A stretch of DNA of 29,635 bases from a virus. The notes under the pieces are model-generated. The model was not told the DNA's origin, ran no database searches, and saw nothing but the letters and a program-made list of their open reading frames with translations. The DNA lies in IMG/VR virus record IMGVR_UViG_3300042563_001410, positions 1-29,635 of that record; one strand, given 5' to 3'. Shown one piece after another: positions 4,832 through 29,635 of the stretch. A program made the position numbers and the translations under genes. Within the stretch, counting starts at the first letter, position 1. Every line of letters begins with the position of its first letter.

Positions 4832-5091
4832 GAGACAAATTTACTTATGGTGGGGGCACCCATGTTGCACTTCGCTACGCTCGTATGAACCGTACACGCC
4901 CAATTAGTGTTGAACAGACTCTGGCATTGTTCCCCCACAAGTTTAGTAAACCCAGCAGAGTTAAAGAATCTTTTAATACTTTAACCCGACATGGCCTCCT
5001 TACAGAAACTAAAAAAGGTTGGGTAATCACCACTCGTGGTATTGACCACCTTACAAACATCTCTAAACTTTATTTAGGTGAGTTTAAATGA
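4828..5091 (+). CDS. winged-helix DNA-binding-like protein
   Basis: An 87-residue protein. SVEQTLALFPHKFSKPSRVKESFNTLTRHGLLTETKKGWVITTRGIDHL has the helix-turn-helix plus wing pattern of small phage winged-helix proteins (recognition helix near residues 42-55, beta wing with GWVITTRG). The wing is encoded partly by a 12/13 match to the dispersed 13-bp repeat (4998-5010). ATGA overlaps with both neighbours. Probably a regulator or accessory DNA-binding protein; target unknown. Confidence 0.72.
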   Translation: MRDKFTYGGGTHVALRYARMNRTRPISVEQTLALFPHKFSKPSRVKESFNTLTRHGLLTETKKGWVITTRGIDHLTNISKLYLGEFK

Positions 5092-18152: not shown

Positions 18153-19179
18153 TAACAAAAGCCATTGGGGTGGTGCAGGTTGGGTACGACTAGGACAGTA
18201 CGAACCCTTGCTAGAAACCGATACTTTTATTGGGACTCTTGTATGGAACAGAACGCACTTCTCTATACAAACCGATGGAGATTCTACGCTCCATGATGTT
18301 GACATCATTATCATGCAACGACTAATGCATGACACCCTTCCTGAACACATGAAGTTGGCACAGAAAGCGGGTCAGATTATTATCAATGACCTTGATGACT
18401 GGTACTGGGGACTGGACACAACCAACCTTGCTTTTGCTGCAAGTCACCCAAAAACCAGCCCAAACGAAAACACCAATCATTACAAAAAGGTACTTGCTAC
18501 AAGCGACAGAATAACCGTATCCACACCGTACCTAAGAGACCGACTACTAAAAATGTTTAGTAATTGTCCACCCATAGATGTGTTACTGAATACTGTTGAT
18601 GTAAAGCGATTCAATATCCACGAACACATTACAGAAACTAAACCAATTGTTGGATGGGTGGGCTCAACCAACCACAGAAGTGGTGACCTTGAAACTGTTG
18701 CTGGCACTATCCCACCATTACAGAAACTTGGTTTAATCTCTCTCCAGCATAGTGGTGCGCACCCCAATGCACCTTCGCTTGCATCCAAATGGAACATTAC
18801 AGAAACTTCTGTAACTTCGCTCCCAGCAACTGACCCTGAAGATTATCCAAACTTACTCACAATGGATATTGGTATTGCACCTCTACGGGACACCCCATTC
18901 AATCATGCTAAGTCTGACATCAAGATTCTTGAATACTCTGCTTCAGGTATTCCGTGGGTTGCATCGGGGTTACCTGCTTATGAGACATTACAGAAACTTT
19001 GGGGAGTTGGCAGAGTTGCCAAAAAGAACAAAGCAAAAGAATGGCAGAAGCACATCACAGCATTATGTGACCCAAAGGTTCGTGCAGAAGAAGGGCAAGC
19101 ACTACGAGAAGCCTCTTGGTCAAGAGACATCCTCGTAGGTGCTGATACCTTTAACTCTTACCTAAACGCTTTGCTCTGA
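18094..19179 (+). CDS. glycosyltransferase (GT-B, GT4-like)
   Basis: 361 residues, TTG start with GAGGAA 6 bases upstream. The N-terminal half has a phage GT pattern (DVDIIIMQRL, IINDLDDWYW, TVSTPYLRDRL); the C-terminal half has IVGWVGSTNHRSGDLE and DIGIAPLRDTPFNHAKSDIKILEYSASGIPWVAS, the donor-binding region of GT4-like enzymes with conserved Glu and Gly. Likely transfers a sugar to phage DNA, virion protein or host wall; the dehydratase at 14820 could supply the donor. Four copies of the 13-bp repeat lie inside it in two reading frames. Ends 18 bp inside the convergent WhiB gene. Confidence 0.87.
   Translation: MKLKLGIASGDRVPPQRSPDNKSHWGGAGWVRLGQYEPLLETDTFIGTLVWNRTHFSIQTDGDSTLHDVDIIIMQRLMHDTLPEHMKLAQKAGQIIINDLDDWYWGLDTTNLAFAASHPKTSPNENTNHYKKVLATSDRITVSTPYLRDRLLKMFSNCPPIDVLLNTVDVKRFNIHEHITETKPIVGWVGSTNHRSGDLETVAGTIPPLQKLGLISLQHSGAHPNAPSLASKWNITETSVTSLPATDPEDYPNLLTMDIGIAPLRDTPFNHAKSDIKILEYSASGIPWVASGLPAYETLQKLWGVGRVAKKNKAKEWQKHITALCDPKVRAEEGQALREASWSRDILVGADTFNSYLNALL
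18627..18639 (+). repeat. 13-bp dispersed motif, exact
   Basis: CATTACAGAAACT inside the glycosyltransferase gene, read as ITET. Confidence 0.85.
18716..18728 (+). repeat. 13-bp dispersed motif, exact
   Basis: CATTACAGAAACT inside the glycosyltransferase gene, read in another frame as PLQKL. Confidence 0.85.
18795..18807 (+). repeat. 13-bp dispersed motif, exact
   Basis: CATTACAGAAACT inside the glycosyltransferase gene, read as ITET. Confidence 0.85.
18986..18998 (+). repeat. 13-bp dispersed motif, exact
   Basis: CATTACAGAAACT inside the glycosyltransferase gene, read as TLQKL. Confidence 0.85.
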
Positions 19180-19470
19180 AACATTACAGAAACTCTTTAG
19201 AAGACCCTTACGCTCTTTAGGCATCAACCCACCCCAAATACCATGCTTGATGTCATTGTCTACTGCAAAGCGCAAACACTCAACTGTCACGGGGCATTCA
19301 GCACAAGTGTCAACTGCCTTGGCAATACTTAACGCCACTGTTTTGACAGTGCGCCCAGCACCAAACTCAAAAAAGTGAGTGTTGCCCATACCAGCACACA
19401 ATGCATGGTCACGCCATGCACCATTGTCAGGTGATTTCAACATATTGTATTCAATTTGCTCTACGGTCAT
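19162..19470 (-). CDS. whiB: WhiB-family Fe-S transcription regulator, leftward
   Basis: 102 residues, the only convincing leftward gene. Cluster Cys are C25, C56, C59 and C65 (C-x2-C-x5-C), followed by HGIWGGLMPKER (76-87), the WhiB signature. GGAGGAAT directly precedes its ATG. It converges with the glycosyltransferase (18-bp overlap) and diverges from the 19544 operon, so it is placed like a control gene for the right-hand region. It probably binds the host primary sigma factor and changes promoter choice. A 13-bp motif lies in its 3' end, oriented opposite to the gene. Confidence 0.95.
   Translation of the reverse strand: MTVEQIEYNMLKSPDNGAWRDHALCAGMGNTHFFEFGAGRTVKTVALSIAKAVDTCAECPVTVECLRFAVDNDIKHGIWGGLMPKERKGLLKSFCNVSEQSV
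19182..19194 (+). repeat. 13-bp dispersed motif, exact
   Basis: CATTACAGAAACT just after the glycosyltransferase stop, within the 3' end of the leftward WhiB gene but still on the plus strand. Orientation therefore follows the genome arm, not the local gene. Confidence 0.85.
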
Positions 19471-19488
19471 ATTCCTCCAAAATAATTG

Positions 19489-19517
19489 TTGCTTTTTGTT
19501 TGTGGTGGTTGTACTCT
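19489..19517 (+). promoter_or_regulatory. rightward promoter of the 19.5 kb operon
   Basis: TTGCTT (19489-19494), 17 bases, TACTCT (19512-19517), in the 73-bp gap between divergent genes. No 13-bp motif upstream. Confidence 0.55.
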
Positions 19518-19543
19518 ATCGGCAGGGAAGAAAGGAACCCAAC

Positions 19544-19726
19544 ATGAAATATGCAATTTATGTAACTGAAACTGTTAACCATATGTATGTGGTTGAAGCA
19601 AACTCAGCCGAAGAAGCCGAGGCAGTTTATTACTCTTATGATGATGACCAACTCATCACAGAAGATTCAGATGGTTCTGTGGGCTGGGACAGCCCATGGG
19701 AAATTACCTTGTACGAGGAGGACTAA
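19544..19726 (+). CDS. DpnD/PcfM-like small protein, 60 aa
   Basis: Start at 19544 with AAGGAA 4 bases upstream. KYAIYVTETVNHMYVVEANSAEEAEAVYY fits the short DpnD/PcfM-like pattern (beta strand ending in VTET, then V-V-EA-S-EEA before a helix), with an acidic tail. Such proteins are small beta-alpha-beta units of unknown role in phages and mobile elements. First gene after a candidate promoter. Confidence 0.7.
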   Translation: MKYAIYVTETVNHMYVVEANSAEEAEAVYYSYDDDQLITEDSDGSVGWDSPWEITLYEED

Positions 19727-19728
19727 TC

Positions 19729-19902
19729 ATGGCAACTTACAAAGTATATGTTCGTGTTGACTTGGAATACGAAGTGGAATGCGACAACGAGGAAGACGCA
19801 ACCAACCAAGGTTGGAATTGGGAAGAATACATCCAATACAGCGAGGTCTACTCCATTGATGTAGAAGACATTACAGAATCTGACGAAGAAGAAGAGGGAT
19901 AA
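19729..19902 (+). CDS. small acidic protein, DpnD-like pattern, 57 aa
   Basis: GAGGAGG precedes the ATG. YKVYVRVDLEYEVECDNEEDAT follows the same strand-strand-EEA pattern as the upstream gene, so the two may be paralogues. The strongly acidic end (VEDITESDEEEEG) is encoded partly by CATTACAGAATCTGACG, a fused relative of the dispersed motif. Confidence 0.66.
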   Translation: MATYKVYVRVDLEYEVECDNEEDATNQGWNWEEYIQYSEVYSIDVEDITESDEEEEG

Positions 19903-19904
19903 AA

Positions 19905-20531
19905 ATGCCAAACTGGGTATCAACCACACTGAGCGTCAAAGGCTCCAAAGAAGAAGTACATCGTTTCATTGATGGGATAACTGACTCAAAGATTCTTCAA
20001 TCTTATGTGCCATGTCCTGAAGAACTTCAAAACACTGTTGCAGGCTCTGTCCCCGAAGACAAGGCAGAAGAACACCGTAAGCAAAAAGAGTCCAACATTG
20101 CCAAGTATGGTCACAAAGATTGGTACGACTGGGCTTATGATAACTGGGGTAGCAAATGGGGTGACTGTGATACAGACATCCAACCAGTTTCTGAAGACTC
20201 TTTTGGTGTGTGGGAAGTCATCATTCAATACCAAACTGCTTGGTCTTGTGCTGACACAGGCTTTCTCAAAGTCTCTCAAATGTTTCCATCTTTGTATTTT
20301 ACTTTTGACTATGACGAAGAGGCTGGATTCTTCTCAGGTCTTCATGTATTTCATAACGGCAACATCATCTTTGAATCCATGTACGAGCCTTGCAATTACC
20401 CACATCCGATTGATTGGGACGATTGTGAATCTATGGACAAGTACGAAGAGTGGAAAGTAAAAAACAGCGATACGATTCATGCCGAGTATGTGTTGTTTAT
20501 GGCAAACAAACATTACACAAACTCTAATTAA
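19905..20531 (+). CDS. YubB/DUF1281-like ferredoxin-fold protein
   Basis: 208 residues. The N-terminus MPNWVSTTLSVKGSKEEVHRFIDGI matches the YubB ferredoxin-like domain (MPNW ... L-V-G ... F), common on plasmids and phages. A Trp/Asp-rich middle (WYDWAYDNWGSKWGDCDTD) and a second half (FFSGLHVFHNG) complete the usual two-part layout. No catalytic role is established for the family. GAGGGA ribosome site. The last codons contain a CATTACACAAACT copy read as HYTNS. Confidence 0.8.
   Translation: MPNWVSTTLSVKGSKEEVHRFIDGITDSKILQSYVPCPEELQNTVAGSVPEDKAEEHRKQKESNIAKYGHKDWYDWAYDNWGSKWGDCDTDIQPVSEDSFGVWEVIIQYQTAWSCADTGFLKVSQMFPSLYFTFDYDEEAGFFSGLHVFHNGNIIFESMYEPCNYPHPIDWDDCESMDKYEEWKVKNSDTIHAEYVLFMANKHYTNSN
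20511..20523 (+). repeat. 13-bp dispersed motif, C variant
   Basis: CATTACACAAACT at the 3' end of the YubB-like gene, read as HYTNS, the third reading frame. Confidence 0.8.
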
Positions 20532-20548
20532 GAAAAGGAACCATTTTG

Positions 20549-20896
20549 ATGTTGACACACAAACCGATTGGATTTGAAGGGACTGTCTGTTGGAAGGACA
20601 GCCCTGATAGCCAAGATTACTTTTACTTCTCATTTAGTGAAGAGTTGTTGAACCACGAAGGACAACCAGCCGAAGAGGACATCTACGGAGTCCGTGATGA
20701 CAACATCTTCTTTTATTTAGATGATGCTCAACAAGAGTCATTACATAAAGCGATAGAAAAAAACTATGTCAATGCTTTTGACATTGGTGAAGAGTGGTTT
20801 ATTGACCTCTCAGAACCATACGAGTTTATTTACGAACTTGCGTATGAGGACAACATCGTCCACATGGCAGTCACCAAAGATGAGATGGTGGACTGA
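20549..20896 (+). CDS. acidic hypothetical protein, 115 aa
   Basis: ATG at 20549 with AAGGAA about 8 bases upstream. Rich in aromatic and acidic residues (DYFYFSFSEELL, NIFFYLDDAQQ, EPYEFIYELAYEDN), probably an alpha/beta fold. No family recognised. Its stop overlaps the next start (TGATG). Confidence 0.7.
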   Translation: MLTHKPIGFEGTVCWKDSPDSQDYFYFSFSEELLNHEGQPAEEDIYGVRDDNIFFYLDDAQQESLHKAIEKNYVNAFDIGEEWFIDLSEPYEFIYELAYEDNIVHMAVTKDEMVD

Positions 20897-21306
20897 TGCA
20901 AACTTTTGTACCCGAACGCACTTTTGCAGACATTGCTTTAGTTCTTGACTACAAGCGTCTTGGTAAACAGCGTGTAGAAGTATTACAAATCTTGCGTGCC
21001 AACCTTGGGCTCACCAAAGGATGGGTCAACCATCCAGCATCAAAGATGTGGGCAGGTCACGAAGCAGGTCTCTGCGCTTATGGTCTCGCAATGTGTGACG
21101 CATGGACTGCCAAAGGTTACAAAGATACTTGTGCTTATAAAATGCAAGAGTTAATACGACCCGATGCGAATGACCTTCCCGACTGGTGGGGACGCACTGA
21201 CATCATTGAATCACATCGTTCTAACCTCGTTGCAAAGTTCCCCGAACATTACAGAAACTTTTATCCCAATGTGGTGAGTGATTTGCCATATGTGTGGGTA
21301 GTCTGA
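20896..21306 (+). CDS. pyrimidine-dimer DNA glycosylase / endonuclease V-like
   Basis: 136 residues in the pattern I associate with the Pyr_excise group: MQTFVPERTFADIALVLDYKRLGKQRVE, NHPASKMWAGHEAGLCAYGLAM, ESHRSNLVAKFPEHYRNFYP and a PYVWV end. Enzymes of this type remove UV-induced pyrimidine dimers; a repair function suits a phage exposed to sunlight in surface water (inference). The distant T4 DenV is not obviously alignable by eye. It contains a 13-bp motif read as HYRNF. Confidence 0.72.
   Translation: MQTFVPERTFADIALVLDYKRLGKQRVEVLQILRANLGLTKGWVNHPASKMWAGHEAGLCAYGLAMCDAWTAKGYKDTCAYKMQELIRPDANDLPDWWGRTDIIESHRSNLVAKFPEHYRNFYPNVVSDLPYVWVV
21247..21259 (+). repeat. 13-bp dispersed motif, exact
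   Basis: CATTACAGAAACT near the end of the glycosylase-like gene, read as HYRNF, a third reading frame. Confidence 0.85.
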
Positions 21307-21334
21307 CAACAACGCCAACAGGAGGCAACAAACA

Positions 21335-21622
21335 ATGAATTATCAGCAATTACAGGATTACGCACTGTTCTGTTCTTTAGAACACCATCTTTGCAATGTA
21401 GAAGAACTGATGGATAATGGTTTTATCCTCAGTGACATCCTCGCACTCGTAGAGGCTGGCTCTAACGCACCCTTGATTTGGGAACAGTACGAGTACGCAC
21501 CACGAGAAGATGTCGTAGAGATGATTGAAGACGCACGAGGTGTGCATCTGTATAACTTTATGCGCCTTCTGACAGAAATCAATGGAACAGAATGGGCAAC
21601 CAATTTCAAGGCAGGTAATTAG
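21335..21622 (+). CDS. acidic helical protein, 95 aa
   Basis: CAGGAGG ribosome site about 9 bases upstream. Helical, acidic sequence (SLEHHLCNVEELMDNGFILSDILALVEAG ... REDVVEMIEDARGVHLYNFMRLL). No known family. Confidence 0.7.
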   Translation: MNYQQLQDYALFCSLEHHLCNVEELMDNGFILSDILALVEAGSNAPLIWEQYEYAPREDVVEMIEDARGVHLYNFMRLLTEINGTEWATNFKAGN

Positions 21623-21624
21623 TC

Positions 21625-21930
21625 ATGCAAGCACAAGAGTTCTACGAACACATTGCACAAAATTACACAGAGATTCGCAGTAAATGTTTAAAGGCTGTGT
21701 GGAAGATGCGCAAAGACCCCGAAGTGTGGGACAAAGAAAACAAAAGTTGGTTCCCTGAAGTTGACCAGTGGGATTCATTTGATGTAGTCACCGACCTCAA
21801 TTACTATACAGACGGTAATCAAATGGATTACCCAAGTGACCAAAAGCCAACCATGTATGTAACTGCTTACCTTTACGATGGTGAAAATATCATTACAGAA
21901 ACTTATGTAAAGATTGATTTGAGCAAGTAA
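21625..21930 (+). CDS. hypothetical protein, 101 aa
   Basis: Starts 2 bases after the previous stop. Helical N-terminus (FYEHIAQNYTEIRSKCLKAVWKM) and a beta-rich C-terminus (MYVTAYLYDGENIITETYVKIDL) that includes a 13-bp motif read as ITET. Coupled to the next gene by TAATG. Not recognised. Confidence 0.7.
   Translation: MQAQEFYEHIAQNYTEIRSKCLKAVWKMRKDPEVWDKENKSWFPEVDQWDSFDVVTDLNYYTDGNQMDYPSDQKPTMYVTAYLYDGENIITETYVKIDLSK
21891..21903 (+). repeat. 13-bp dispersed motif, exact
   Basis: CATTACAGAAACT in the 3' part of the 21625 gene, read as ITET. Confidence 0.85.
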
Positions 21931-22235
21931 TGACAACATCACAGCAGATTGCACGATTTATTACAAACCTTGACGATGACGAGTTTGTTGGCTTCAATGT
22001 TTTTGACAAACTCTGTGAGCAGTTCAACTGGCAAGGATTGGTGTTTGGTGATTTAGACATCAGCGCAGTATTCCATGAAGTTGCAGGGCACCCCATTACA
22101 GAAACTGAACTTGAAACAATTCGTGACACCATTGATTTGCATGACATTCTTATGTCGGCTTCACAGGTTGTGATTGAACATCTCACAACTGTAGTATCTC
22201 AATATCTTGACCAACAGGAGGACAAAGATGAGTAA
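21930..22235 (+). CDS. hypothetical protein, 101 aa
   Basis: TAATG coupled. Mostly helical: FITNLDDDEFVGFNVFDKLCEQFN and TELETIRDTIDLHDILMSASQVVIEHL. Holds a 13-bp motif (22094) read as ITET. Overlaps the next gene by 8 bp. Unknown family. Confidence 0.7.
   Translation: MTTSQQIARFITNLDDDEFVGFNVFDKLCEQFNWQGLVFGDLDISAVFHEVAGHPITETELETIRDTIDLHDILMSASQVVIEHLTTVVSQYLDQQEDKDE
22094..22106 (+). repeat. 13-bp dispersed motif, exact
   Basis: CATTACAGAAACT inside the 21930 gene, read as ITET. Confidence 0.85.
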
Positions 22236-22581
22236 GTGGATTTTAGACATCCAATCAGGCACATTAGTAGACGCAGAGAACTGTGTAATCGTTGACGATT
22301 CCAATACTGACTTTGACGAAGAGGAAGCCTTTATGGATTATGCCGAATCAGTAGGTATACCAGTTCTTGAGTACCGTAACCCCGACCAAGTTCACATCTC
22401 TTGGGATGCAGAAGATGTACAAACATTGTCAATGCATTTGACATACGAAGAGGCTCTTGAGGCATTACAGAAAGTTTCAAAGCCCCTACGAGAAGTCTCC
22501 ACGCAATACGGCTGGGAGATTTTAGAAACGGCTCTTGAATCCGAAGGATACGAAATTACAATTATTAAGGCACCATTCTGA
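22228..22581 (+). CDS. hypothetical protein, paralogue of the 22709 product
   Basis: 117 residues; start at 22228 with AGGAGG 6 bases upstream. The head WILDIQSGTLVDAENCVIVDD has the same hydrophobic-G-x-(I/L)-x-D-x2-x-C-x-I-x-D pattern as the protein at 22709 (IVGTDDGIILDVNRCAIFDE), suggesting duplication. The C-terminal half is helical (LTYEEALEALQKVSKPLREV). Function unknown. Contains a 12/13 motif copy at 22463. TGATG coupling to the next gene. Confidence 0.72.
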   Translation: MSKWILDIQSGTLVDAENCVIVDDSNTDFDEEEAFMDYAESVGIPVLEYRNPDQVHISWDAEDVQTLSMHLTYEEALEALQKVSKPLREVSTQYGWEILETALESEGYEITIIKAPF

Positions 22582-22712
22582 TGTTGACTTATGTAATCAT
22601 TGGCATTGGTGCTTTGTGGGGCATCCTGACACTCATTGGTCTTCACGAAGAAGAAAAAGATATCAAAGAACTTTGCGAGTCTGCTCGTAACGCAACAAAA
22701 GGAAAGAAATGA
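22581..22712 (+). CDS. small membrane protein, 43 aa
   Basis: TGATG coupling upstream and ATGA coupling downstream. One hydrophobic helix (MLTYVIIGIGALWGILTLIG) then a charged cytoplasmic-type tail (HEEEKDIKELCESARNATKGKK). Another one-span membrane protein set between soluble small genes. Confidence 0.62.
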   Translation: MLTYVIIGIGALWGILTLIGLHEEEKDIKELCESARNATKGKK

Positions 22713-23188
22713 AAAAGAAAATGATTATTGTAGGTACCGATGATGGCATCATTCTTGATGTCAATCGTTGTGCAATCTTTGATGAGAACGAGTTGAGCGA
22801 AGCAGACCAAACACTGTTGAACTTTGGTACAGAATCTGACGCACTCTCTGTGTCCAATCGTCACGGTACAAAATTGTCTGACATCTTAGAAGGATGTGGT
22901 TACGGTGATTTACATTACGGAAACTGTCTTGCGTTGACACCAATCACACTGCAACAAGAGTTTGAAGAGATTCCTGCAATGATTGGTGATGTTGACCACA
23001 TTGAAGGTGCCCAAGAGATTAAAAAGATTCTTGAGTGGGGCGCACATCTAAACAAAAACCAATTTGATTTGCTGTCCAGTTACATTTTACAAGATGATGA
23101 ACTATGGATTCATTGGCGCACAGCCGTTGTCACAGCATTGGATTGGATGTACGCCGAATACAACAATACAGAAAGTGATGAGTCATGA
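22709..23188 (+). CDS. hypothetical protein, 159 aa
   Basis: Shares the N-terminal D-G-I-I-L-D-x-N-R-C-A-I-F-D-E pattern with the 22228 product, so the two are probable paralogues. The centre is LSVSNRHGTKLSDILEGCGYGDLHYGN and the end is Trp-rich and helical (LWIHWRTAVVTALDWMYAEYN). Contains a 12/13 motif (CATTACGGAAACT, 22913-22925). ATGA coupled downstream. Confidence 0.72.
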   Translation: MKKKMIIVGTDDGIILDVNRCAIFDENELSEADQTLLNFGTESDALSVSNRHGTKLSDILEGCGYGDLHYGNCLALTPITLQQEFEEIPAMIGDVDHIEGAQEIKKILEWGAHLNKNQFDLLSSYILQDDELWIHWRTAVVTALDWMYAEYNNTESDES

Positions 23189-23370
23189 AAGTAGCAGATT
23201 GGCATAAATGGACACGCTTCAAGAAACGCTTGAGCGTCAGTTTACTTCTTGTCGGAATCTTTCTTTCATTTGGTATGGAAAATGGTTCTATTGCTTACGG
23301 AGTATGGGGAATCATTTTTGCAGGAGTTGGAGCAATGATTGCTTCTTCAGTTCGCACAAATGAGTGGTGA
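23185..23370 (+). CDS. small two-span membrane protein, 61 aa
   Basis: A basic head (KVADWHKWTRFKKRL) is followed by two hydrophobic segments (SVSLLLVGIFLSFG and GVWGIIFAGVGAMIAS) joined by a short loop. Possibly a holin-like or membrane regulator; length fits small phage membrane proteins but nothing specific proves lysis. Last gene before an intergenic region with promoter and repeats. Confidence 0.68.
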   Translation: MKVADWHKWTRFKKRLSVSLLLVGIFLSFGMENGSIAYGVWGIIFAGVGAMIASSVRTNEW

Positions 23371-23417
23371 CATTACACAAACTTTGTGTTGTTTTCTTAT
23401 TACCTCTCCTGTAAGGT
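23371..23417 (+). promoter_or_regulatory. 13-bp motif (C variant) coupled to promoter
   Basis: CATTACACAAACT (23371-23383), 5 bases, TTGTTT (23389-23394), 17 bases, TAAGGT (23412-23417). The motif and following bases make the palindrome ACACAAA-C-TTTGTGT. It would drive the 23525 gene. The -10 is partly in a hairpin arm. Confidence 0.58.
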
Positions 23418-23423
23418 AATAAG
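23396..23423 (+). repeat. perfect 10-bp inverted repeat
   Basis: CTTATTACCT and AGGTAATAAG around an 8-base loop (CTCCTGTA). It straddles the candidate -10, so it is an operator or leader hairpin. There is no T run, so it is not an intrinsic terminator. Confidence 0.7.
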
Positions 23424-23431
23424 TGTGTGGG

Positions 23432-23486
23432 GGTTCCCCGATTTCTTACACGAGATTAATTTCTTACACGAGAATGACAGGGAACC
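23432..23486 (+). repeat. direct repeat pair inside an inverted repeat
   Basis: ATTTCTTACACGAGA occurs at 23441-23455 and 23459-23473 (18-bp period), flanked by GGTTCCC (23432-23438) and GGGAACC (23480-23486). It lies between the candidate promoter and the ribosome site of the 23525 gene, so it would be in the leader RNA. Confidence 0.7.
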
Positions 23487-23524
23487 TTTCACATAAAACA
23501 AACTAATTTTCTGAGGAGGGAATT

Positions 23525-23827
23525 ATGAATGTAGCAGAACAAGCACTGGGGACAGTTGACCCATGTGTATATTGCAAACGCTCAACAGCGTTTGGTGCGG
23601 GATTTGGTTTATTCGTTAACCGTATCCCAGTTGACGATGGTTGGGGCTGTGCCGAGTGTTCAGGATTTGAATGTGACGAGTGCAACCAACAGATTTATCT
23701 TGACTGTGAGATTCGTGTGGAGTTCACAGATGAAGAAGGTAACTACCATTACGGAAACTACCACGAAGAATGCTATGACTCTGAGAAGCATGGCATCAGC
23801 GAAGACCACGAAGAAACCGAGGAATAA
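23525..23827 (+). CDS. Cys-rich zinc-binding protein, 100 aa
   Basis: GAGGAGG about 8 bases upstream. CVYC near residue 14, then a cluster CAECSGFECDEC (about 42-53), CE and a C-terminal HEECYD: enough ligands for two zinc sites, LIM- or RING-like in spacing. Acidic C-terminus (SEDHEETEE) whose codons GAGGAA serve as ribosome site for the next gene. Possible adaptor or transcription-modifying protein; not recognised. Confidence 0.74.
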   Translation: MNVAEQALGTVDPCVYCKRSTAFGAGFGLFVNRIPVDDGWGCAECSGFECDECNQQIYLDCEIRVEFTDEEGNYHYGNYHEECYDSEKHGISEDHEETEE

Positions 23828-23830
23828 ATA

Positions 23831-24139
23831 ATGTCTAACAAAAAGCCATACACCGTAACCATGACAGGAACTTATTTTGTTTTTGCCGAATCAGAAAGTG
23901 AAGCAAATGACATTGTCTCTGAAGCAATCTTGCACATTGACAAAGTTGACAACAGGATTCATGATAGCGAAACCCATTGGGCACAAGCAGTCATTCTTCA
24001 AGGTCACTACACAACTATTGTCTATGACGGGTGTGATGCCAGCGATTATGATGCCCGAATCGCATCGTTGGCAGGTACTGCCGCAACTCATGACTGGTAC
24101 CTTGCCCTCATGAACACCATTACAGAAACTGAGGAATAA
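23831..24139 (+). CDS. small alpha/beta protein, DpnD-like start, 102 aa
   Basis: Ribosome site GAGGAA lies in the end of the previous gene. Head KPYTVTMTGTYFVFAESESEANDIVSEAI follows the strand-strand-E-S-EA pattern of the 19544 product. The C-terminus ends TITETEE, encoded by a 13-bp motif (24118) directly followed by the ribosome site of the next gene. Function unknown. Confidence 0.7.
   Translation: MSNKKPYTVTMTGTYFVFAESESEANDIVSEAILHIDKVDNRIHDSETHWAQAVILQGHYTTIVYDGCDASDYDARIASLAGTAATHDWYLALMNTITETEE
24118..24130 (+). repeat. 13-bp dispersed motif, exact
   Basis: CATTACAGAAACT at the end of the 23831 gene, read as ITET, 12 bases before the next ATG. Confidence 0.85.
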
Positions 24140-24142
24140 ACA

Positions 24143-24385
24143 ATGTCTTACCCAATCATCTATCTTGAAGAATCCAATAAAGAAATTGAAGACTGTACAG
24201 TTCTTCACGCACTCAAGGATTTGTTTGTTCGCATACAACTCCGTGATGGTCATTCATGGGGTTATGTAGAAGTCACCGATTACAGCGATGGAGTTCTGTG
24301 GTTCACTGTTGGCTCTTCAGTTGACGAACCTTCATACCAAGTCATGGCACCAATCACATCAATTCAGACAATCACCTACATCTGA
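24143..24385 (+). CDS. small beta-rich protein, 80 aa
   Basis: GAGGAA in the preceding stop region. Sequence of alternating beta-type segments (FVRIQLRDGHSWGYVEVTDYS; VLWFTVGSSVDEPSYQVMAP), a probable small barrel or SH3-like fold. No family recognised. Confidence 0.68.
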   Translation: MSYPIIYLEESNKEIEDCTVLHALKDLFVRIQLRDGHSWGYVEVTDYSDGVLWFTVGSSVDEPSYQVMAPITSIQTITYI

Positions 24386-24432
24386 CATTACACAAACTTT
24401 GTGTTGTGTTTCCATAAACCGACCGTTATATT
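24386..24432 (+). promoter_or_regulatory. 13-bp motif (C variant) coupled to strong promoter
   Basis: CATTACACAAACT (24386-24398), 5 bases, TTGTGT (24404-24409), 17 bases, TATATT (24427-24432). The palindrome ACACAAA-C-TTTGTGT overlaps the start of the -35. It drives the 24467 gene; it is the clearest of the motif-promoter pairs. Confidence 0.75.
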
Positions 24433-24466
24433 TACAACTACCAACAACTAGTTCCGAGGAGGGACA

Positions 24467-24808
24467 ATGTCACGAGACATGAGCACATCAACAAATATCC
24501 ATCCACACTCAAAAGAAATGTCATTTGACTTACACCATATGCCTCAGTTTGGCACGACAACTTTTAAGGTTGTTTTGAATGATTACAACGCAATAAACAT
24601 CTTTCTTCCAATGACACCACAAGAAATTATTGCATTGCTTGAAGAGCAAGTTGCCAACTTAGTTGACAACTTCAATGCCATTACCGAAGACGATGACATT
24701 ACAGAAACTGATACAGAATCTGACGAGTCCACAGAACTCAAGACCCTTGCAGAAAAGTTCAACGCTTCACCAATCGGTTTAGTCGTGAATAACATTCTCA
24801 ACAAATAA
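24467..24808 (+). CDS. acidic hypothetical protein, 113 aa
   Basis: GAGGAGG ribosome site. The head is His/Met-rich (NIHPHSKEMSFDLHHMPQFG), the middle helical (MTPQEIIALLEEQVANLVDNF), and then EDDDITETDTESDESTE, an acidic tract encoded by the 13-bp motif plus ACAGAATCTGACG. First gene behind a motif-linked promoter. Not recognised. Confidence 0.7.
   Translation: MSRDMSTSTNIHPHSKEMSFDLHHMPQFGTTTFKVVLNDYNAINIFLPMTPQEIIALLEEQVANLVDNFNAITEDDDITETDTESDESTELKTLAEKFNASPIGLVVNNILNK
24697..24709 (+). repeat. 13-bp dispersed motif, exact
   Basis: CATTACAGAAACT inside the 24467 gene, read as ITET. The following 17 bases are nearly identical to those after the intergenic copy at 25893. Confidence 0.85.
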
Positions 24809-24840
24809 ACAACATCTCAACATTACAGGAAGTAGAGAAA

Positions 24841-25266
24841 ATGGAAAACAGTACAAAAAATGGATGGACACTCGTAGGAGAATGTGCAGTTGACTCAGGT
24901 CAACTCATGGTCTGCGACCCGTGTTACATCAAGTCACATTGGGATAGCAATGAGTTCACATCCAGCACTGATGAAGACAAGAATGATTTCTCGTATGACG
25001 GTGCGTGCGTTACAACAATTCGTCACACAGCAGGTCAGTTAGGAAAGAGTCTCGGCGTAGCAACATCCACTGCTGGTGGGGACGGTGTGTTCCCTGTGTA
25101 TGTGCGTTACGAGAATGGCACAGCAATGGAGTTTCGTATAATGCTTGACGGTGCAAGGTTGACCAAGAATGGTGACCCCGTTGAGGAGTGCCCTGACTGT
25201 GGCTCTGACATGACAGAAACTTCATGCGACTGGTGCGCCGAAGAAGACGAGGACGAGGACGAGTGA
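24841..25266 (+). CDS. DUF4241-like hypothetical protein with C-terminal zinc knuckles
   Basis: 141 residues. VGECAVDSGQLMVCDPCYI near the N-terminus and GKSLGVATSTAGGDGVFPVYVRYENG in the middle recall a phage family in which a D-SG-DPCY motif precedes a GDG-YPVYV strand. The end holds CPDCGSDMTETSCDWC and a poly-Glu/Asp tail. Role unknown. The ribosome site is a degenerate motif copy (CATTACAGGAAGT, 24821-24833). Confidence 0.7.
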   Translation: MENSTKNGWTLVGECAVDSGQLMVCDPCYIKSHWDSNEFTSSTDEDKNDFSYDGACVTTIRHTAGQLGKSLGVATSTAGGDGVFPVYVRYENGTAMEFRIMLDGARLTKNGDPVEECPDCGSDMTETSCDWCAEEDEDEDE

Positions 25267-25514
25267 TGGCACCACAAGAGTTACTCAAGACGGTAAAGGA
25301 ACTGCGTAAAACCTTTGATGGCATTCTTTCTTTCTACAACGAACTTAGTGATGAAGCGTTTGAAGAATTGTATGCACGCATGGAAACACTCATCAAAAAA
25401 CTTGAGCAAGACGCACAATCCAACTTGGCAGACATTACACAAACTCCTAAGTTGCAAGTCCTGACCAAGACCGATACATTTATCAACAACCAAGTTCCAC
25501 AGGAGGAATCATGA
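25266..25514 (+). CDS. helical hypothetical protein, 82 aa
   Basis: TGATG coupling selects the ATG at 25266 over upstream in-frame codons. The chain is helical (LLKTVKELRKTFDGILSFYNELSDEAFEELYARMETLIKKLE), suggesting a coiled coil. Contains a C-variant motif (25433) read as ITQT. ATGA overlap with the next gene. Confidence 0.68.
   Translation: MAPQELLKTVKELRKTFDGILSFYNELSDEAFEELYARMETLIKKLEQDAQSNLADITQTPKLQVLTKTDTFINNQVPQEES
25433..25445 (+). repeat. 13-bp dispersed motif, C variant
   Basis: CATTACACAAACT inside the 25266 gene, read as ITQT. Confidence 0.8.
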
Positions 25515-25828
25515 CAACCAAATACCCCGAAGCACAAGTGCAACTAGTAGGTGAGGACGGTAATGCGTTCTCAATCCTTGCTCGCACGATGAAGGCATTG
25601 CGCAAAGCAGGCGTGCCCAGCGATGAAGTAACTGCGTACCACGAGGAAGCCACATCAGCCGACTACGGTCACTTGCTCCGCACCACGATGGCGTGGGTCA
25701 CCTGTGACATTGGTATGAGCGAAGAAACAGTAACATACTGTGGTATCTGTGGAATGGACTCTGACATCTATGCAGATGCAATGTGCGAAGATTGCTGGAA
25801 CGAAGCAGAAGACGAAGAAGAGAACTAA
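25511..25828 (+). CDS. conserved small protein with C-terminal zinc ribbon, 105 aa
   Basis: The N-terminal domain VQLVGEDGNAFSILARTMKALRKAG ... EEATSADYGHLLRTTMAWV follows a pattern I recall as widespread in phages and bacteria with no assigned role. Its C-terminus adds CGICGMDSDIYADAMCEDC, a four-Cys zinc ribbon, and an acidic tail. AGGAGG ribosome site. Last gene before a terminator. Confidence 0.76.
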   Translation: MTTKYPEAQVQLVGEDGNAFSILARTMKALRKAGVPSDEVTAYHEEATSADYGHLLRTTMAWVTCDIGMSEETVTYCGICGMDSDIYADAMCEDCWNEAEDEEEN

Positions 25829-25856
25829 GTAACATCTCACGCCCCCAGTGAGGGAG

Positions 25857-25883
25857 AAGGGACGGTGCAAACCGTCCCTTTTT
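25857..25883 (+). terminator. intrinsic terminator, GCAA loop
   Basis: Arms AAGGGACGGT (25857-25866) and ACCGTCCCTT (25871-25880), 10 perfect pairs around a GCAA tetraloop, then T run to 25883. Ends the operon of the preceding small genes. Confidence 0.92.
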
Positions 25884-25892
25884 CTTGCACCC

Positions 25893-25905
25893 CATTACAG
25901 AAACT
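25893..25905 (+). repeat. 13-bp dispersed motif, exact
   Basis: Intergenic CATTACAGAAACT, first of a doublet spaced 69 bp (next at 25962). No promoter hexamers at the usual offset. Confidence 0.85.
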
Positions 25906-25921
25906 AATACAGAATCTGACG

Positions 25922-25960
25922 AACCGATGTCACTGAAAAACCGATGTCACTAAAAAACCA
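25922..25960 (+). repeat. second intergenic repeat, two units
   Basis: ACCGATGTCACTGAAAAACC and a degenerate second unit CCGATGTCACTAAAAAACC lie back to back. Twenty-three bases from 25922 recur identically at 29335-29357. Confidence 0.82.
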
Positions 25961-25961
25961 A

Positions 25962-26008
25962 CATTACAGAAACTCTCTGTTGCAACCGACCGTTTTATTC
26001 CCTACGAT
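25962..26008 (+). promoter_or_regulatory. 13-bp motif coupled to promoter
   Basis: CATTACAGAAACT (25962-25974), 5 bases, TTGCAA (25980-25985), 17 bases, TACGAT (26003-26008). Faces the 26038 gene. Confidence 0.7.
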
Positions 26009-26037
26009 GAAGTCAACCCAACCACAGGAGGATGGAC

Positions 26038-26361
26038 ATGACAGTAATAACGGATTACTCGCAAGCAGTGCGTGACACACGCAACGCTTTGCGTTACCAC
26101 AAGCAACCAAGAACTTATACAAAAGCACATCTTGAGAAGTGGGGCGAGATTGCACAAATGACATACCCTGACACCAACGATTGTGTAAACCTTGACCTGC
26201 GCAACGCATTCGTACACGGATGCCTCTTGGGCTATGAGTTTGTACTCGTTCTTGACTCACCATCGTGCTACGACCGTTTGCAGGCTGATGCCTTCATTGC
26301 TGGTGTTGTCACTGGTGAGGTCTGCTGGAGTTTTGAGCATCGTGATGAGGACGACCTGTAA
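26038..26361 (+). CDS. hypothetical protein, 107 aa
   Basis: ATG at 26038 has AGGAGG exactly 6 bases upstream; the in-frame ATG at 26032 would abut that site. Helical head (YSQAVRDTRNALRYHKQPRTYTKAHLEKWGEIAQM), then NAFVHGCLLGYEFVLVLD and DAFIAGVVTGEVCWSFEH. No family recognised. First gene behind the motif-promoter at 25962. Confidence 0.7.
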   Translation: MTVITDYSQAVRDTRNALRYHKQPRTYTKAHLEKWGEIAQMTYPDTNDCVNLDLRNAFVHGCLLGYEFVLVLDSPSCYDRLQADAFIAGVVTGEVCWSFEHRDEDDL

Positions 26362-26366
26362 TGGAA

Positions 26367-26379
26367 CATTACACAAACT
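26367..26379 (+). repeat. 13-bp dispersed motif, C variant
   Basis: Intergenic CATTACACAAACT, 5 bases after the previous stop and about 50 bases before the next ATG. No clear -35/-10 pair follows. Confidence 0.8.
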
Positions 26380-26417
26380 CTCACGGACTCACTCCCAACT
26401 AAACGAAAGACAAGGAC

Positions 26418-26792
26418 ATGACAGAAACTCTTCCCAACACCTGTGACGGGTGTGGTGCGCCAGTCACACGGTGGTTGCCTGAAGAACCACCTGACCGTGG
26501 GTTGTCATTTGACATCACTGGTTCATACGCAGGCTTCACCGACAACTTTCAGAAACCTTTACATTTCCTTAGCCGACTTGACATTTGCCATGACTGTGTA
26601 ATTCGCCTTGTGGAATTGTTTCCAATCTTGCGACTCAAGTTTGGCGCAGGGTGCCACCCCTGTTGGGAAGACAAGCCCTGCTGTGCGCATTCATTTTCTA
26701 CCACGGAAGATAACTCACCACGAGTTCCAAATGACTCCCTGACAGGGTGGGTCAACATCAGTTATGACGAGTTGCGAGAACGGATTGTCTGA
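26418..26792 (+). CDS. Cys-rich zinc-binding protein, 124 aa
   Basis: CDGCG near the N-terminus, CHDC in the middle and CHPCWEDKPCCAH near residue 86 give several metal-ligand pairs. The start codon lies inside a motif variant (CATGACAGAAACT, 26417-26429), so the protein begins MTET. The ribosome site (AAGGA) is unusually close to the ATG. Unknown function. Confidence 0.7.
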   Translation: MTETLPNTCDGCGAPVTRWLPEEPPDRGLSFDITGSYAGFTDNFQKPLHFLSRLDICHDCVIRLVELFPILRLKFGAGCHPCWEDKPCCAHSFSTTEDNSPRVPNDSLTGWVNISYDELRERIV

Positions 26793-26799
26793 TGAATCA

Positions 26800-26862
26800 C
26801 ATTACAGAAACTTTCATGTTGCTCTTCGCAAGAGATTGCCCTATCTTTGGCAGTGGGCAATC
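26800..26862 (+). promoter_or_regulatory. 13-bp motif coupled to promoter with inverted repeat
   Basis: CATTACAGAAACT (26800-26812), 6 bases, TTGCTC (26819-26824), 17 bases, TATCTT (26842-26847). GATTGCCC (26834-26841) and GGGCAATC (26855-26862) flank the -10 as an inverted repeat, a possible operator. The region resembles that before the 27395 gene. Confidence 0.7.
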
Positions 26863-26888
26863 CCGTCCAATTCCACAGGAGGAATCAA

Positions 26889-27242
26889 ATGTCAACTATC
26901 TCACCTAACCCAACAGGGACAGCAGTGTTTGGTGCTTACCCATACACAGTTTGCACAGAGTGCGAATGGGAGCAGTTCTATCATCGTGGCAACGAGCGTG
27001 GTGCCAAGAACTGGGGTCATCGTCACAGCGCAGACACAGGTCACAAAGTTCGCATGAAGAATCACCACGAGTTCGCAGATGTGCTGTGGACGCAAGAGTT
27101 CGTGACCACAAACTTTGGCGAGCCTGCAATGCAGATGTGGCTCGGCACATTGAAGCCATTCGTCAACCACCTCGTTGGCAAGTATTCGGCTGGCACATAT
27201 TCACTTGAGCAGTGCGAGCAACTGTACGCAATCTTCTGCTAA
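26889..27242 (+). CDS. zinc-finger-like protein, 117 aa (DUF7848-like)
   Basis: CAGGAGG about 7 bases upstream selects the ATG at 26889. CTECEWEQFYH ... HRHSADTGHKV has the CxxC ... H-x-TGH layout of small phage/actinobacterial zinc proteins. The C-terminus is helical with two Cys. Single-gene unit: motif, promoter, gene, UUCG terminator. Confidence 0.75.
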   Translation: MSTISPNPTGTAVFGAYPYTVCTECEWEQFYHRGNERGAKNWGHRHSADTGHKVRMKNHHEFADVLWTQEFVTTNFGEPAMQMWLGTLKPFVNHLVGKYSAGTYSLEQCEQLYAIFC

Positions 27243-27260
27243 TCAGCCCCCCACGGAACG

Positions 27261-27291
27261 AGCCCTCGCACTTCGGTGCGGGGGCTTTTTT
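27261..27291 (+). terminator. intrinsic terminator, UUCG loop
   Basis: Arms AGCCCTCGCAC (27261-27271) and GTGCGGGGGCT (27276-27286), 11 pairs with one G-U, around TTCG, then six T. Nearly the same stem as those at 28058 and 29252. Confidence 0.95.
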
Positions 27292-27302
27292 CGTTGTCAG
27301 GA

Positions 27303-27350
27303 CATTACACAAACTTTGGTGTTGTGTCTTGTGGGCGATTGCTCTATCTT
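27303..27350 (+). promoter_or_regulatory. 13-bp motif (C variant) coupled to promoter
   Basis: CATTACACAAACT (27303-27315), 6 bases, TTGTGT (27322-27327), 17 bases, TATCTT (27345-27350). The 5' leader after it (CATCCCGTCC ... CCACAGGAGGAATCAA) is nearly identical to the one before 26889. Confidence 0.72.
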
Positions 27351-27394
27351 TGGTGGTGGGGCATCCCGTCCCGTTTCCACAGGAGGAATCAAAA

Positions 27395-28033
27395 ATGACA
27401 ACATACAAACCACGACCTGCGCCATCTGAGCGTGAGCAAAAAGTCATCATGCACTTGATGACCTATGCCAATGGCAACTCTTTCTACACCGACATCTTGA
27501 ACAAGTCCATGCGCTTCGTTCTCTCTGAAGGTCAGATGGCTTGCGTTGAGCGCAACTTTGAGACCGACAAGGTCAAGGCTGAGAAGAAGGCTGAAATGAT
27601 TGCCAACAAGCAAGTTGTCGTAGGCGGTCGCAACAAGAGCGTCATTGGCAAAATTGTGTCTCTCAAGTTTGACACCGATGGGCGCAACAACAACACCCCG
27701 ATTGCCAAGGTCATCCTTGAGCGTGAAGATGGCACCAAGTTGTGGGGCACCATTCCCGTGGTTGACTTCACCAAGATGCGTGTGGTTCTCAACGAGGGTG
27801 ACACACTTGCGTTCTTGGCAAACATCACCAAGTCGTCTGACGACCCCACATTCGGGTTCTTCAGGTACGGCGCAAAGTTGGCTCACTGGGGCGAGAAGGG
27901 TGGCACTGCCACCCTTCCTGATGGCACTTACAAGTTCGTGTCTTACTCGGACGAGACCGAGTTGTTCGGCGGCGAGCCTGACGAATTGCCCGAACCAGCA
28001 GACGAGATTGATGGCTTCACCGAGCCCTTCTAG
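27395..28033 (+). CDS. hypothetical protein, 212 aa, highly GC-biased codons
   Basis: The ATG at 27395 follows CAGGAGGAATCAAAA; longer upstream reading would run through the terminator. The N-terminus is helical (SEREQKVIMHLMTYANG), the centre basic (KVKAEKKAEMIANKQVVVGGRNKSVIGKIV) and the remainder beta-rich (IAKVILEREDGTKLWGTIPVVDF). The C-terminus is acidic, a layout seen in many single-strand DNA-binding or other nucleic-acid proteins, though no family is recognised. Third positions are markedly C/G, unlike the left half, which suggests high expression. Single-gene unit next to the DUF932 gene. Confidence 0.8.
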   Translation: MTTYKPRPAPSEREQKVIMHLMTYANGNSFYTDILNKSMRFVLSEGQMACVERNFETDKVKAEKKAEMIANKQVVVGGRNKSVIGKIVSLKFDTDGRNNNTPIAKVILEREDGTKLWGTIPVVDFTKMRVVLNEGDTLAFLANITKSSDDPTFGFFRYGAKLAHWGEKGGTATLPDGTYKFVSYSDETELFGGEPDELPEPADEIDGFTEPF

Positions 28034-28057
28034 CCCCCCAACAACTCCCCCAGCAGG

Positions 28058-28086
28058 AGCCCTCGCCCTTACGGGCGGGGGCTTTT
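28058..28086 (+). terminator. intrinsic terminator, UUAC loop
   Basis: Arms AGCCCTCGCCC (28058-28068) and GGGCGGGGGCT (28073-28083) around TTAC, then TTTT to 28086. Confidence 0.92.
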
Positions 28087-28099
28087 GTCGTTCTCAGAC

Positions 28100-28157
28100 C
28101 ATTACAGAAACTTTCACCGAGCGATTGTTGCTTTACTCACATGACCGCCCCTACAAT
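28100..28157 (+). promoter_or_regulatory. 13-bp motif coupled to promoter
   Basis: CATTACAGAAACT (28100-28112), 15 bases, TTGCTT (28128-28133), 18 bases, TACAAT (28152-28157). The gap to the -35 is about one helical turn longer than at the other sites. Confidence 0.65.
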
Positions 28158-28202
28158 CGGTCGTGGGGCAATACCGCCCCTTCCGATACAGGAGGACATC
28201 AA

Positions 28203-29228
28203 ATGTCACAGGAAACACTGGAATGGCTCAATCAGAACACTCTGATTGGATTCACTGAACGCCGTGGAAACGCATGGCACTACAAAGCATCTGAGCAGGG
28301 CTCGGAAAGCAATCACTACATTGGCGCAATCCCCGTTGCCGATGTGTATCGCCGTTTGCTCAACTGGCAGGCAGTAGAGGCACCAGCATTCGTTGGTATC
28401 CCGACCGCTGAGGGCTTCAACTATGTCTTGCAAAATGACCGCAAGTTCATCGTTCGCTCCGATGACCAGAGCGTGCTTGGCATCTTCAAGGATGGCTACC
28501 AAATCCACCAGTATGGCGAATGGCTCATTGACGCAGTCGCCAACATCGTGGACGACAGCAACCTTGCCATCGGTCAGGCTGGGCTTCTCAAGGGTGGCGC
28601 AGTTGCATGGGTCAGCATTGAGTTGCCTGAGAACATTGAAACCCCATCGGGCTTCACCGTTCGCCCGCAGTTGCTCGCAACGACCAGCCACAACGGCTCG
28701 CTTGCCACGACCCACAAGATGACCAACACCGTGGTCGTCTGCGACAACACGCTGTCCATGGGTCTCAACGATGGCAAGTCTGCTCACCGCACCCGTCACT
28801 CAAAGCACTCAGGCTTCAAGGTTCAGTCAGTGCGTGATGCCATCGGCGTGGTTCACACCATGACCGACAACATCATGGCTGAGATTGAGGCTTTGGCTTC
28901 TGTCTCGGTGACCGACAAGCAGTTCTTTGACATCGTGAACCGCCTTGTGCCAATCGCTGAGATGGGTGAAACCACCAACAGCGCACGCACCAAGTTGGGC
29001 AACAAGCAGGACGCAATCTTTGACCTGTACAGCAAGAACCCAATGGTCGCTCCATGGAAGGGCACCAAGTTGGGAGTCATTCAGGCTTTCAACACCTATG
29101 CCCACCACATCAGTGGCACCGACAAGAATCGTGCCCAGCGCAACCTGAGCAACGCAGTCATGGGCAAGACCGATGACGCTGACCTTCAGGTCTTGCAAGC
29201 GATTGACCTCGTCCTCGCCAACGCCTAA
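28203..29228 (+). CDS. DUF932 family protein, 341 aa
   Basis: The ATG at 28203 follows AGGAGGACATCAA. Features of the phage/plasmid DUF932 family: an N-terminal W-x-A-xx-Y-like region, VADVYRRLLNWQAVE, FNYVLQNDRKFIVRSDDQSVLG, then TNTVVVCDNTLSMGLNDG with HSKHSG, and a helical C-terminus. Members are common on actinobacterial phages and plasmids; biochemical role is unsettled, with links to replication and recombination proposed. Codons are strongly C/G-ending, as in the gene before. Own promoter and own UUCG terminator. Confidence 0.9.
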   Translation: MSQETLEWLNQNTLIGFTERRGNAWHYKASEQGSESNHYIGAIPVADVYRRLLNWQAVEAPAFVGIPTAEGFNYVLQNDRKFIVRSDDQSVLGIFKDGYQIHQYGEWLIDAVANIVDDSNLAIGQAGLLKGGAVAWVSIELPENIETPSGFTVRPQLLATTSHNGSLATTHKMTNTVVVCDNTLSMGLNDGKSAHRTRHSKHSGFKVQSVRDAIGVVHTMTDNIMAEIEALASVSVTDKQFFDIVNRLVPIAEMGETTNSARTKLGNKQDAIFDLYSKNPMVAPWKGTKLGVIQAFNTYAHHISGTDKNRAQRNLSNAVMGKTDDADLQVLQAIDLVLANA

Positions 29229-29251
29229 CAGCACAGCGACCCTCCACTGTG

Positions 29252-29280
29252 AGCCCTCGCCCTTCGGGGCGGGGGCTTTT
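29252..29280 (+). terminator. intrinsic terminator, UUCG loop
   Basis: Arms AGCCCTCGCCC (29252-29262) and GGGCGGGGGCT (29267-29277) around TTCG, then TTTT. Ends the DUF932 unit. Confidence 0.95.
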
Positions 29281-29281
29281 C

Positions 29282-29294
29282 AGTTTCTGTAATG
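29282..29294 (-). repeat. 13-bp dispersed motif, exact, inverted
   Basis: AGTTTCTGTAATG on the plus strand, i.e. CATTACAGAAACT on the minus strand, 2 bases beyond the terminator T run. First copy in the opposite direction. Confidence 0.85.
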
Positions 29295-29334
29295 TCTCCA
29301 GCAAAACCGATGGTGTTTTTTGATGTCTCCAAAA

Positions 29335-29357
29335 AACCGATGTCACTGAAAAACCGA
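29335..29357 (+). repeat. second intergenic repeat, copy at the right end
   Basis: Twenty-three bases identical to 25922-25944, containing ACCGATGTCACTGAAAAACC. Confidence 0.82.
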
Positions 29358-29392
29358 CCTCGTTTTTTTGAGCCTTTCCCAATGCCTGCAAG

Positions 29393-29405
29393 AGTTTCTG
29401 TAATG
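29393..29405 (-). repeat. 13-bp dispersed motif, exact, inverted
   Basis: Second minus-strand CATTACAGAAACT; both inverted copies are preceded on the minus strand by GGRGA. Confidence 0.85.
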
Positions 29406-29471
29406 TCCCCACGGCGTGTCAGCCCGTGTGCTGTGATGTCTGCGCTCGGTGGTGTTGCTTCATTCACGCTG

Positions 29472-29568
29472 TCCGTGAGGGATTGTTTCGTTGTTCGCTG
29501 TTGTTGTGATTCCGTGAGGGATTGTTTGATTGTTGTCGGGTTCGTTGTGGGTTCGTGAAAGTTTGTTT
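29472..29568 (+). repeat. degenerate repeats about 40 bp apart
   Basis: TCCGTGAGGGATTGTTT at 29472-29488 and 29511-29527 (17 bp identical), and a diverged TTCGTGAAAGTTTGTTT at 29552-29568. Spacing is 39 and 41 bp. Possible iterons or regulator sites. Confidence 0.7.
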
Positions 29569-29635
29569 GATTGTTTACGAGTTCGCCCAACACATTTGAA
29601 TCCGTGAAACACAAAACAAAAACACACGCATACAC

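Follow-up and report, generated by a model that had tools for sequence, protein, structure and literature searches.

A polar 13-bp DNA word in an uncultured phage lineage and its probable role in transcription control

The DNA analyzed here, referred to as the window, is a stretch of 29,635 nucleotides (nt) that makes up positions 1 to 29,635 of the IMG/VR virus record IMGVR_UViG_3300042563_001410. It carries the asymmetric 13-bp word CATTACA[G/C]AAACT in 22 exact copies, 20 on the plus strand and 2 on the minus strand, whereas 0.01 copies were expected from 100 dinucleotide shuffles. The number of copies, their polarity, selection at the level of DNA, and a fixed spacing to predicted promoters can be read from the sequence, and from these we infer binding by a regulator. 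The word constitutes a real, selected, polar, and genome-wide site system, most likely for transcription control. Somewhat more specifically, and with confidence a little better than even, we favor the reading that it is a directional site recognized by a phage-encoded transcription regulator that acts in a stoperator-like manner, both at promoters and at polar sites within transcription units. A phage protein would bind the word beside the −35 box and time the start of early genes. At in-gene copies and convergent gene ends, this protein would act on RNA polymerase passing in that direction, by pausing, stopping, or insulating.

Number, orientation, and selection of the word

The exact copies comprise 16 of the form CATTACAGAAACT and 6 of the form CATTACACAAACT, and the 13-mer of the window lineage is also given as CATTACASAAACT. 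When up to two mismatches were allowed, 45 matches were found in the window against 2.4 expected. A first-pass annotation, made by a model from the letters of this DNA, had listed the 22 copies together with 12/13 matches at 22463, 22913, 23747, 4998, 11937, and 17022, all of which were present, and the excess over shuffled sequence on which its claim depended was found. Further 12/13 matches occurred at 1582, 3785, 6043 (minus strand), 9526, 13807 (minus strand), 19869, 25209, and 26417. Every copy from 18.6 to 28.1 kb pointed rightward, as annotated, including the copy at 19182 in the 3′ end of a leftward WhiB gene, and the two reversed exact copies were those at 29282 and 29393. Outside the 13 bp, a clear preference was seen at position −1 only (A in 16 of 22 copies), such that the copies are identical 13-mers without common flanks.

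The first-pass annotation had placed the motif between 18.6 and 29.4 kb, and the word is indeed dense there but is not confined to that range. G001 (IMGVR_UViG_3300042887_000976), a 77.7-kb contig with DNA nearly identical to the window, carries 51 sites at one mismatch or less, 47 on the plus strand and 4 on the minus strand, compared to a mean of 0.32 for letter-shuffled decoys. Its left 65 kb, which contains mostly virion and replication genes, carries 20 plus-strand sites at the same threshold, compared to 4.3 after synonymous codon shuffling and a maximum of 3 among 1,500 letter-shuffled decoys. Orientation follows transcription, as G001 is mostly rightward, with leftward regions too short for the reverse test, and plus-strand copies resume past the local reversed pair. 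Because of the 47-to-4 bias in G001 and the 20 sites in its left 65 kb, we conclude that the motif is genome-wide in the window lineage and densest in the small-gene region.

Products of G001, read by eye without a family search, resemble tail sheath proteins, baseplate proteins, and terminase, and thus the phage is probably contractile-tailed; WhiB-like genes indicate that its host is probably actinobacterial. Megablast of the region against cultured phages gave no match. In a motif-only scan of viral contigs, single matches occurred outside the window lineage, among the matches listed. A second relative, G002 (39.9 kb), has two marker proteins 93 to 98% identical to those of the window lineage. 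A pyrimidine dimer DNA glycosylase gene at 20896 to 21306 (Pfam Pyr_excise, E 1e-18) is present in the window lineage and absent from G002.

Simple gene calls of our own placed 12 of the 22 exact copies within genes and 10 between them. Intergenic copies lie 51 to 154 nt from the next start, while in-gene copies occupy varied places, are read in three frames as the first-pass annotation had noted, and are in the majority sense to the gene that holds them. The proposal that conservation acts on the DNA and not on the protein could be assessed in a glycosyltransferase gene, where four exact copies on the plus strand (18627, 18716, 18795, and 18986, spanning 18627 to 18998) encode HITET, PLQKL, NITET, and TLQKL. 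Fourteen of those 20 residues are shared by 22% or less of relatives below 80% identity, compared to a protein-wide mean of 55%, and anchor residues (H, PL, and L) are respected. All four copies are kept in G002 and, more generally, motif copies are 95.8% identical between the window and G002 while their flanks are 88.5% identical. Moreover, genes of the dense region contain 17 near-matches but only about 3 after synonymous shuffling. Chance or codon bias is ruled out by the shuffles, decoys, and synonymous shuffling, and a protein repeat is ruled out by the use of three frames and by residues contrary to the family. Because the glycosyltransferase copies encode residues that relatives mostly lack, the sequence comparison supports conservation of a DNA word and not of a protein.

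Promoter-linked and promoterless copies

A predicted promoter, TTGNNN and TANNNT separated by 17 or 18 bp, follows seven of the 22 exact copies. The −10 element lies at motif position +41 or +42 for the copies at 23371, 24386, 25433, 25962, 26800, and 27303 and at +52 for the copy at 28100, spacings that, given the predicted elements, fall on one helical face. The background rate of such a layout across the same region is 0.4% (P of about 4e-12, a value that is somewhat flattering in that the test was designed after the pattern had been noticed). G002 repeats the layout at 16579, 18711, 19418, 20318, 21444, and 21880, which are partly the same sites by descent.

The seven promoter-linked copies are all on the plus strand. 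Two lie right after a stop codon: one at 23371 to 23417, with −35 TTGTTT (23389 to 23394) and −10 TAAGGT (23412 to 23417), which matches the layout at G002 18711, and one at 24386 to 24432, with −35 TTGTGT (24404 to 24409) and −10 TATATT (24427 to 24432), which corresponds to G002 19418. The next, at 25433 to 25480 in the 3′ part of a gene, has −35 TTGCAA (25452 to 25457) and −10 TACATT (25475 to 25480) and its counterpart at G002 20318. At 25962 to 26008 the elements are TTGCAA (25980 to 25985) and TACGAT (26003 to 26008), and at 26800 to 26847, with a counterpart at G002 21444, they are TTGCTC (26819 to 26824) and TATCTT (26842 to 26847). The last two follow terminator-like hairpins. One spans 27303 to 27350, with TTGTGT (27322 to 27327) and TATCTT (27345 to 27350). 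The other, at 28100 to 28157, lies upstream of a DUF932 gene (28203 to 29228, plus strand), which is a likely target, with TTGCTT (28128 to 28133) and TACAAT (28152 to 28157) in the +52 arrangement; this layout recurs at G002 21880, where the motif carries one mismatch.

Apart from those in the glycosyltransferase gene, four exact in-gene copies on the plus strand (20511, 21247, 21891, and 22094, spanning 20511 to 22106) lie in small genes with no linked promoter, as does a copy at 24118 to 24130 that has none at the set offsets, and another small gene holds the copy at 24697 to 24709. Two intergenic plus-strand copies also lack a linked promoter, one at 25893 to 25905 after a terminator-like hairpin and one at 26367 to 26379. 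At convergent gene ends, copies point into the opposing gene. The plus-strand copy at 19182 to 19194 begins 3 bp past the glycosyltransferase stop and points into the WhiB-like gene (19162 to 19470, minus strand), and the two reversed copies (29282 and 29393, spanning 29282 to 29405 on the minus strand) lie just past the terminator-like hairpin of DUF932 and point back into that gene. G002 keeps both reversed copies, one with a mismatch, and its copy at 24163, also at a convergent end, faces a leftward helicase gene; the convergent junction at 33.6 kb of G002 has no site. Convergent-end copies would suit a one-way block to read-through, the cases being too few for a test.

Other repeats accompany the motif. 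A second short repeat, TACAGAATCTGACG, at 19870, 22829, 24713, and 25908, resembles the motif and twice lies directly downstream of it, and an intergenic repeat, ACCGATGTCACT[G/A]AAAAACC, occurs near motif copies at 25930 to 25960 and 29300 to 29355. A noncoding, repeat-rich, motif-flanked stretch of more than 1 kb lies between DUF932 and the leftward helicase gene, from 29235 to 29635 of the window and on for about 1.2 kb in G001, and is possibly an origin or a regulatory region.

Promoter words of the sister phages

The first-pass annotation had held that loss of the sites in close relatives without pattern would speak against a site system. The comparison was patterned: the sites are retained in near relatives, and more distant ones carry a different word at their promoters. 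The window word had no copy in 16 of 18 related records scanned, and word counting found other asymmetric words in the sister phages. These were TAGGA[A/T]TCGTGAC in G008, CCCCCTACCCCA[C/T]GCAC in G005 and G006, CCCTCCCCCT[C/T]GGCT in G007 (locus L037), TAGGATTTGGACAA in L026 and L028, and TAGGATTCGT[T/C]ACTC in L030. Each of the words in G006, G007, G008, L030, and the window is fixed over its 12 to 16 bp except at a single position that varies freely (S, W, or Y).

The sister words occupy the −35 place in promoters that have TAAGGT, TAAGAT, or a similar sequence as their −10 element. A −10 element was present at set offsets from all sites at one mismatch or less in G008 (28 of 28), G006 (16 of 16), and G007 (11 of 11), and neither G006 nor G007 has a recognizable −35 box (two or fewer of six matches to TTGACA). 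Word and ATG usually lie a constant distance apart, for example, 42 bp in G008 and L026. Because the −10 element is mostly followed by ATG about six bases on, many sister-phage messages are probably leaderless.

Gene order indicates that a word promoter precedes DUF932 in G006, G007, G008, L026, and L028, as the +52 arrangement does in the window. On this comparison the window lineage appears to share a target gene with its sisters while using a different word, placed one or two helical turns further upstream, along with dozens of nonpromoter copies. Because the sisters use a similar layout with other, promoter-restricted words, the sequences suggest a regulator whose DNA specificity changes from lineage to lineage.

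Relatives without a promoter word (G009, G010, G011, and G019/G022; loci such as L040, L042, L051, L053, L062, and L071) have a repeated element, ACCTGAGGAGGT; it is an inverted repeat around the Shine-Dalgarno sequence and may be a translation-level element like start-associated sequences. In G017, TTGGTGAAACACTA, another repeated element of promoter-like or leader type, occurs between 19692 and 33146 in 17 copies at two mismatches or less. The copies, which are intergenic and found on both strands, often precede a gene by about 150 nt. The cultured relative Streptomyces phage BRock (RecA 43% identical) had neither a repeated word nor the winged-helix protein described below in the 100 of its 112 kb that were read.

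The reader protein and competing explanations

The search for a protein that reads the word yielded one lead, an 87-amino-acid protein (4828 to 5091, plus strand) predicted to form a winged helix, with a mean predicted local distance difference test score (pLDDT) of 83. Every word-bearing lineage with a record spanning the locus has it (five of five), and records without it show no such promoter word. It also diverges fast, at 27 to 40% identity compared to 65 to 98% for most of its neighbors. Its nearest solved structure is the activation domain of T4 MotA (E 0.01), and a profile comparison with MotA gave a probability of 93.7, while a control family gave 0.6. The likeness is generic, however, as other winged helices score about equally and the protein has one winged-helix domain only. 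Five records carry the protein without a detectable word, and in G038, a near relative (RecA 93%), the locus lacks the gene for the 87-amino-acid protein, yet four sites, including one exact copy, are retained in 15 kb. For these reasons the candidate is weakened and retained only as a lead. One winged-helix alignment was too diverse for contig searching.

Other candidates fared worse. A 122-amino-acid protein (3203 to 3571) was rejected because G001 and G002 have the same word, whereas their versions of this protein are only 29% identical. The second WhiB-like protein (19162 to 19470), a weaker candidate than the winged helix, was not detected in G006 or G007, which have a word. No sigma factor, no integrase, and no HTH_3 protein above the cut-off was found in G001, G002, G006, G007, and G008, records that are possibly incomplete, and a phage sigma factor was set aside as the reader. 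Integrase families PF00589 and PF07508 were likewise absent from the five records, in which partition genes were not searched. The two-domain cluster A immunity repressor, represented by Tomathan gp78, had no match at an E of 1 or less in five possibly incomplete relatives, two of them of the window lineage, in a search in which no positive control gave a match.

The results for G038 and the flattering P value weigh against a stoperator-like regulator site, as do several others. No reader protein was identified, and no lysogeny gene was found in the records searched, which leaves a lasting repressor without an obvious purpose. No promoter is linked to 15 of the 22 window copies, nor to 43 of 51 sites in G001 at the same offsets, and an action on elongation at the promoterless copies is inferred only. 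Finally, sister phages lack copies away from promoters, and thus an in-gene role would not be a family trait.

In cluster A mycobacteriophages (L5, Bxb1, and relatives), stoperators halt elongation in one orientation (PMC9283540, PMC6550527). The parallel with them drawn in the first-pass annotation holds in part. Both systems have a 13-bp asymmetric word, 20 to 50 copies genome-wide, and orientation with transcription (PMC9283540, PMC6550527); in both, some sites are at promoters and most are not, and the word differs between related phages. Cluster A phages, however, have a repressor, whereas neither a repressor homologue nor an integrase was found in the five possibly incomplete relatives searched. 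Genes hold about one-half of the exact copies in the window and the majority of near-matches in the left 65 kb of G001, whereas the cluster A phage Tomathan, scanned in the same way, has 31 sites at two mismatches or less with only 8 within genes. Promoter copies of the window lineage also lie upstream of the −35 element rather than over it, and the sister phages have their word at promoters only. Membership among cluster A stoperators is not shown, and the behavior would, from the arrangement of the sites, be stoperator-like.

Two other repeats of phages were compared. The start-associated sequences of cluster K (PMC3203893), also suggested in the first-pass annotation, are likewise a 13-bp repeated word in actinobacteriophages but are linked to translation starts, and such an element is ruled out because the window copies show no association with start codons. 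The 17-bp repeat of cluster O (PMC4351075) resembles the window word in having more than 30 dispersed copies, about one-third of them coding, in phages that are not obviously temperate; it is palindromic and without orientation, whereas the window word is asymmetric and polar.

The strongest alternative, which we nonetheless consider rather doubtful, is that the motif binds only a promoter activator, like the T4 MotA box, and that the in-gene copies are decoys, weak internal promoters, or by-products. The MotA box takes the place of the −35 box (PMC6755090), as the word does in G006 and G007, and both are short asymmetric boxes at a fixed distance to the −10 element, a distance that in the window is also phased, in phages that encode a winged-helix protein. 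The window lineage departs from this pattern, as its site lies upstream of a TTGNNN −35 element and also occurs in gene bodies. AsiA was not seen either, although no search was aimed at it. Moreover, the promoterless copies that make up the majority in the window and G001 are under DNA-level selection, and MotA reads DNA with a domain other than the one that the single-domain candidate generically resembles.

A site in the messenger, for instance one that a phage RNA-binding protein binds or a phage nuclease cuts, would account for the sense orientation of most copies. An inverted half also follows the motif (e.g., ACACAAA C TTTGTGT) at 18795, 23371, and 24386, which is 3 of 22 copies at seven of eight matches compared to 0.6% in controls. 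We judge an RNA-level site unlikely, as no stem is possible in most copies, seven copies lie at a fixed distance upstream of a promoter and hence outside its message, and the reversed near-matches at 6043 and 13807 sit in rightward genes and are both kept in G002. A polar replication, recombination, or packaging signal like Chi or KOPS, of the sort that the first-pass annotation had entertained, is more improbable still: it would fit the strong orientation bias over the whole of the G001 contig, but a signal read by host machinery would not change completely between sisters as the word does, the reversed pair is local with plus-strand copies resuming beyond it, and the promoter spacing would go unexplained. 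Functionless spread of a short word by neutral or selfish copying, although compatible with identical 13-mers that share no flanks, is very hard to credit given that the in-gene copies match codon and residue constraints, are better kept than their flanks, and share one orientation and promoter spacing.

A broader account is offered tentatively. An uncultured family of contractile-tailed phages of Actinobacteria might govern early gene expression by a promoter word peculiar to each lineage, which would replace or assist the −35 element in a MotA-like way, with word and reader changing together between sisters, and in the window lineage the word might have spread into gene bodies, where it would steer elongating polymerase.

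The most interesting part of the analysis is the comparison of sister phages, in which several lineages each have their own promoter word. These words form a natural series, and their turnover can be matched to a regulator. Stoperators are known from temperate cluster A actinobacteriophages. If our reading is true, a polar array without a detected lysogeny module, beside sisters with promoter-only words, would indicate how a dispersed site system arises from a promoter box, and control of elongation by a sequence-specific phage protein would become testable beyond cluster A.

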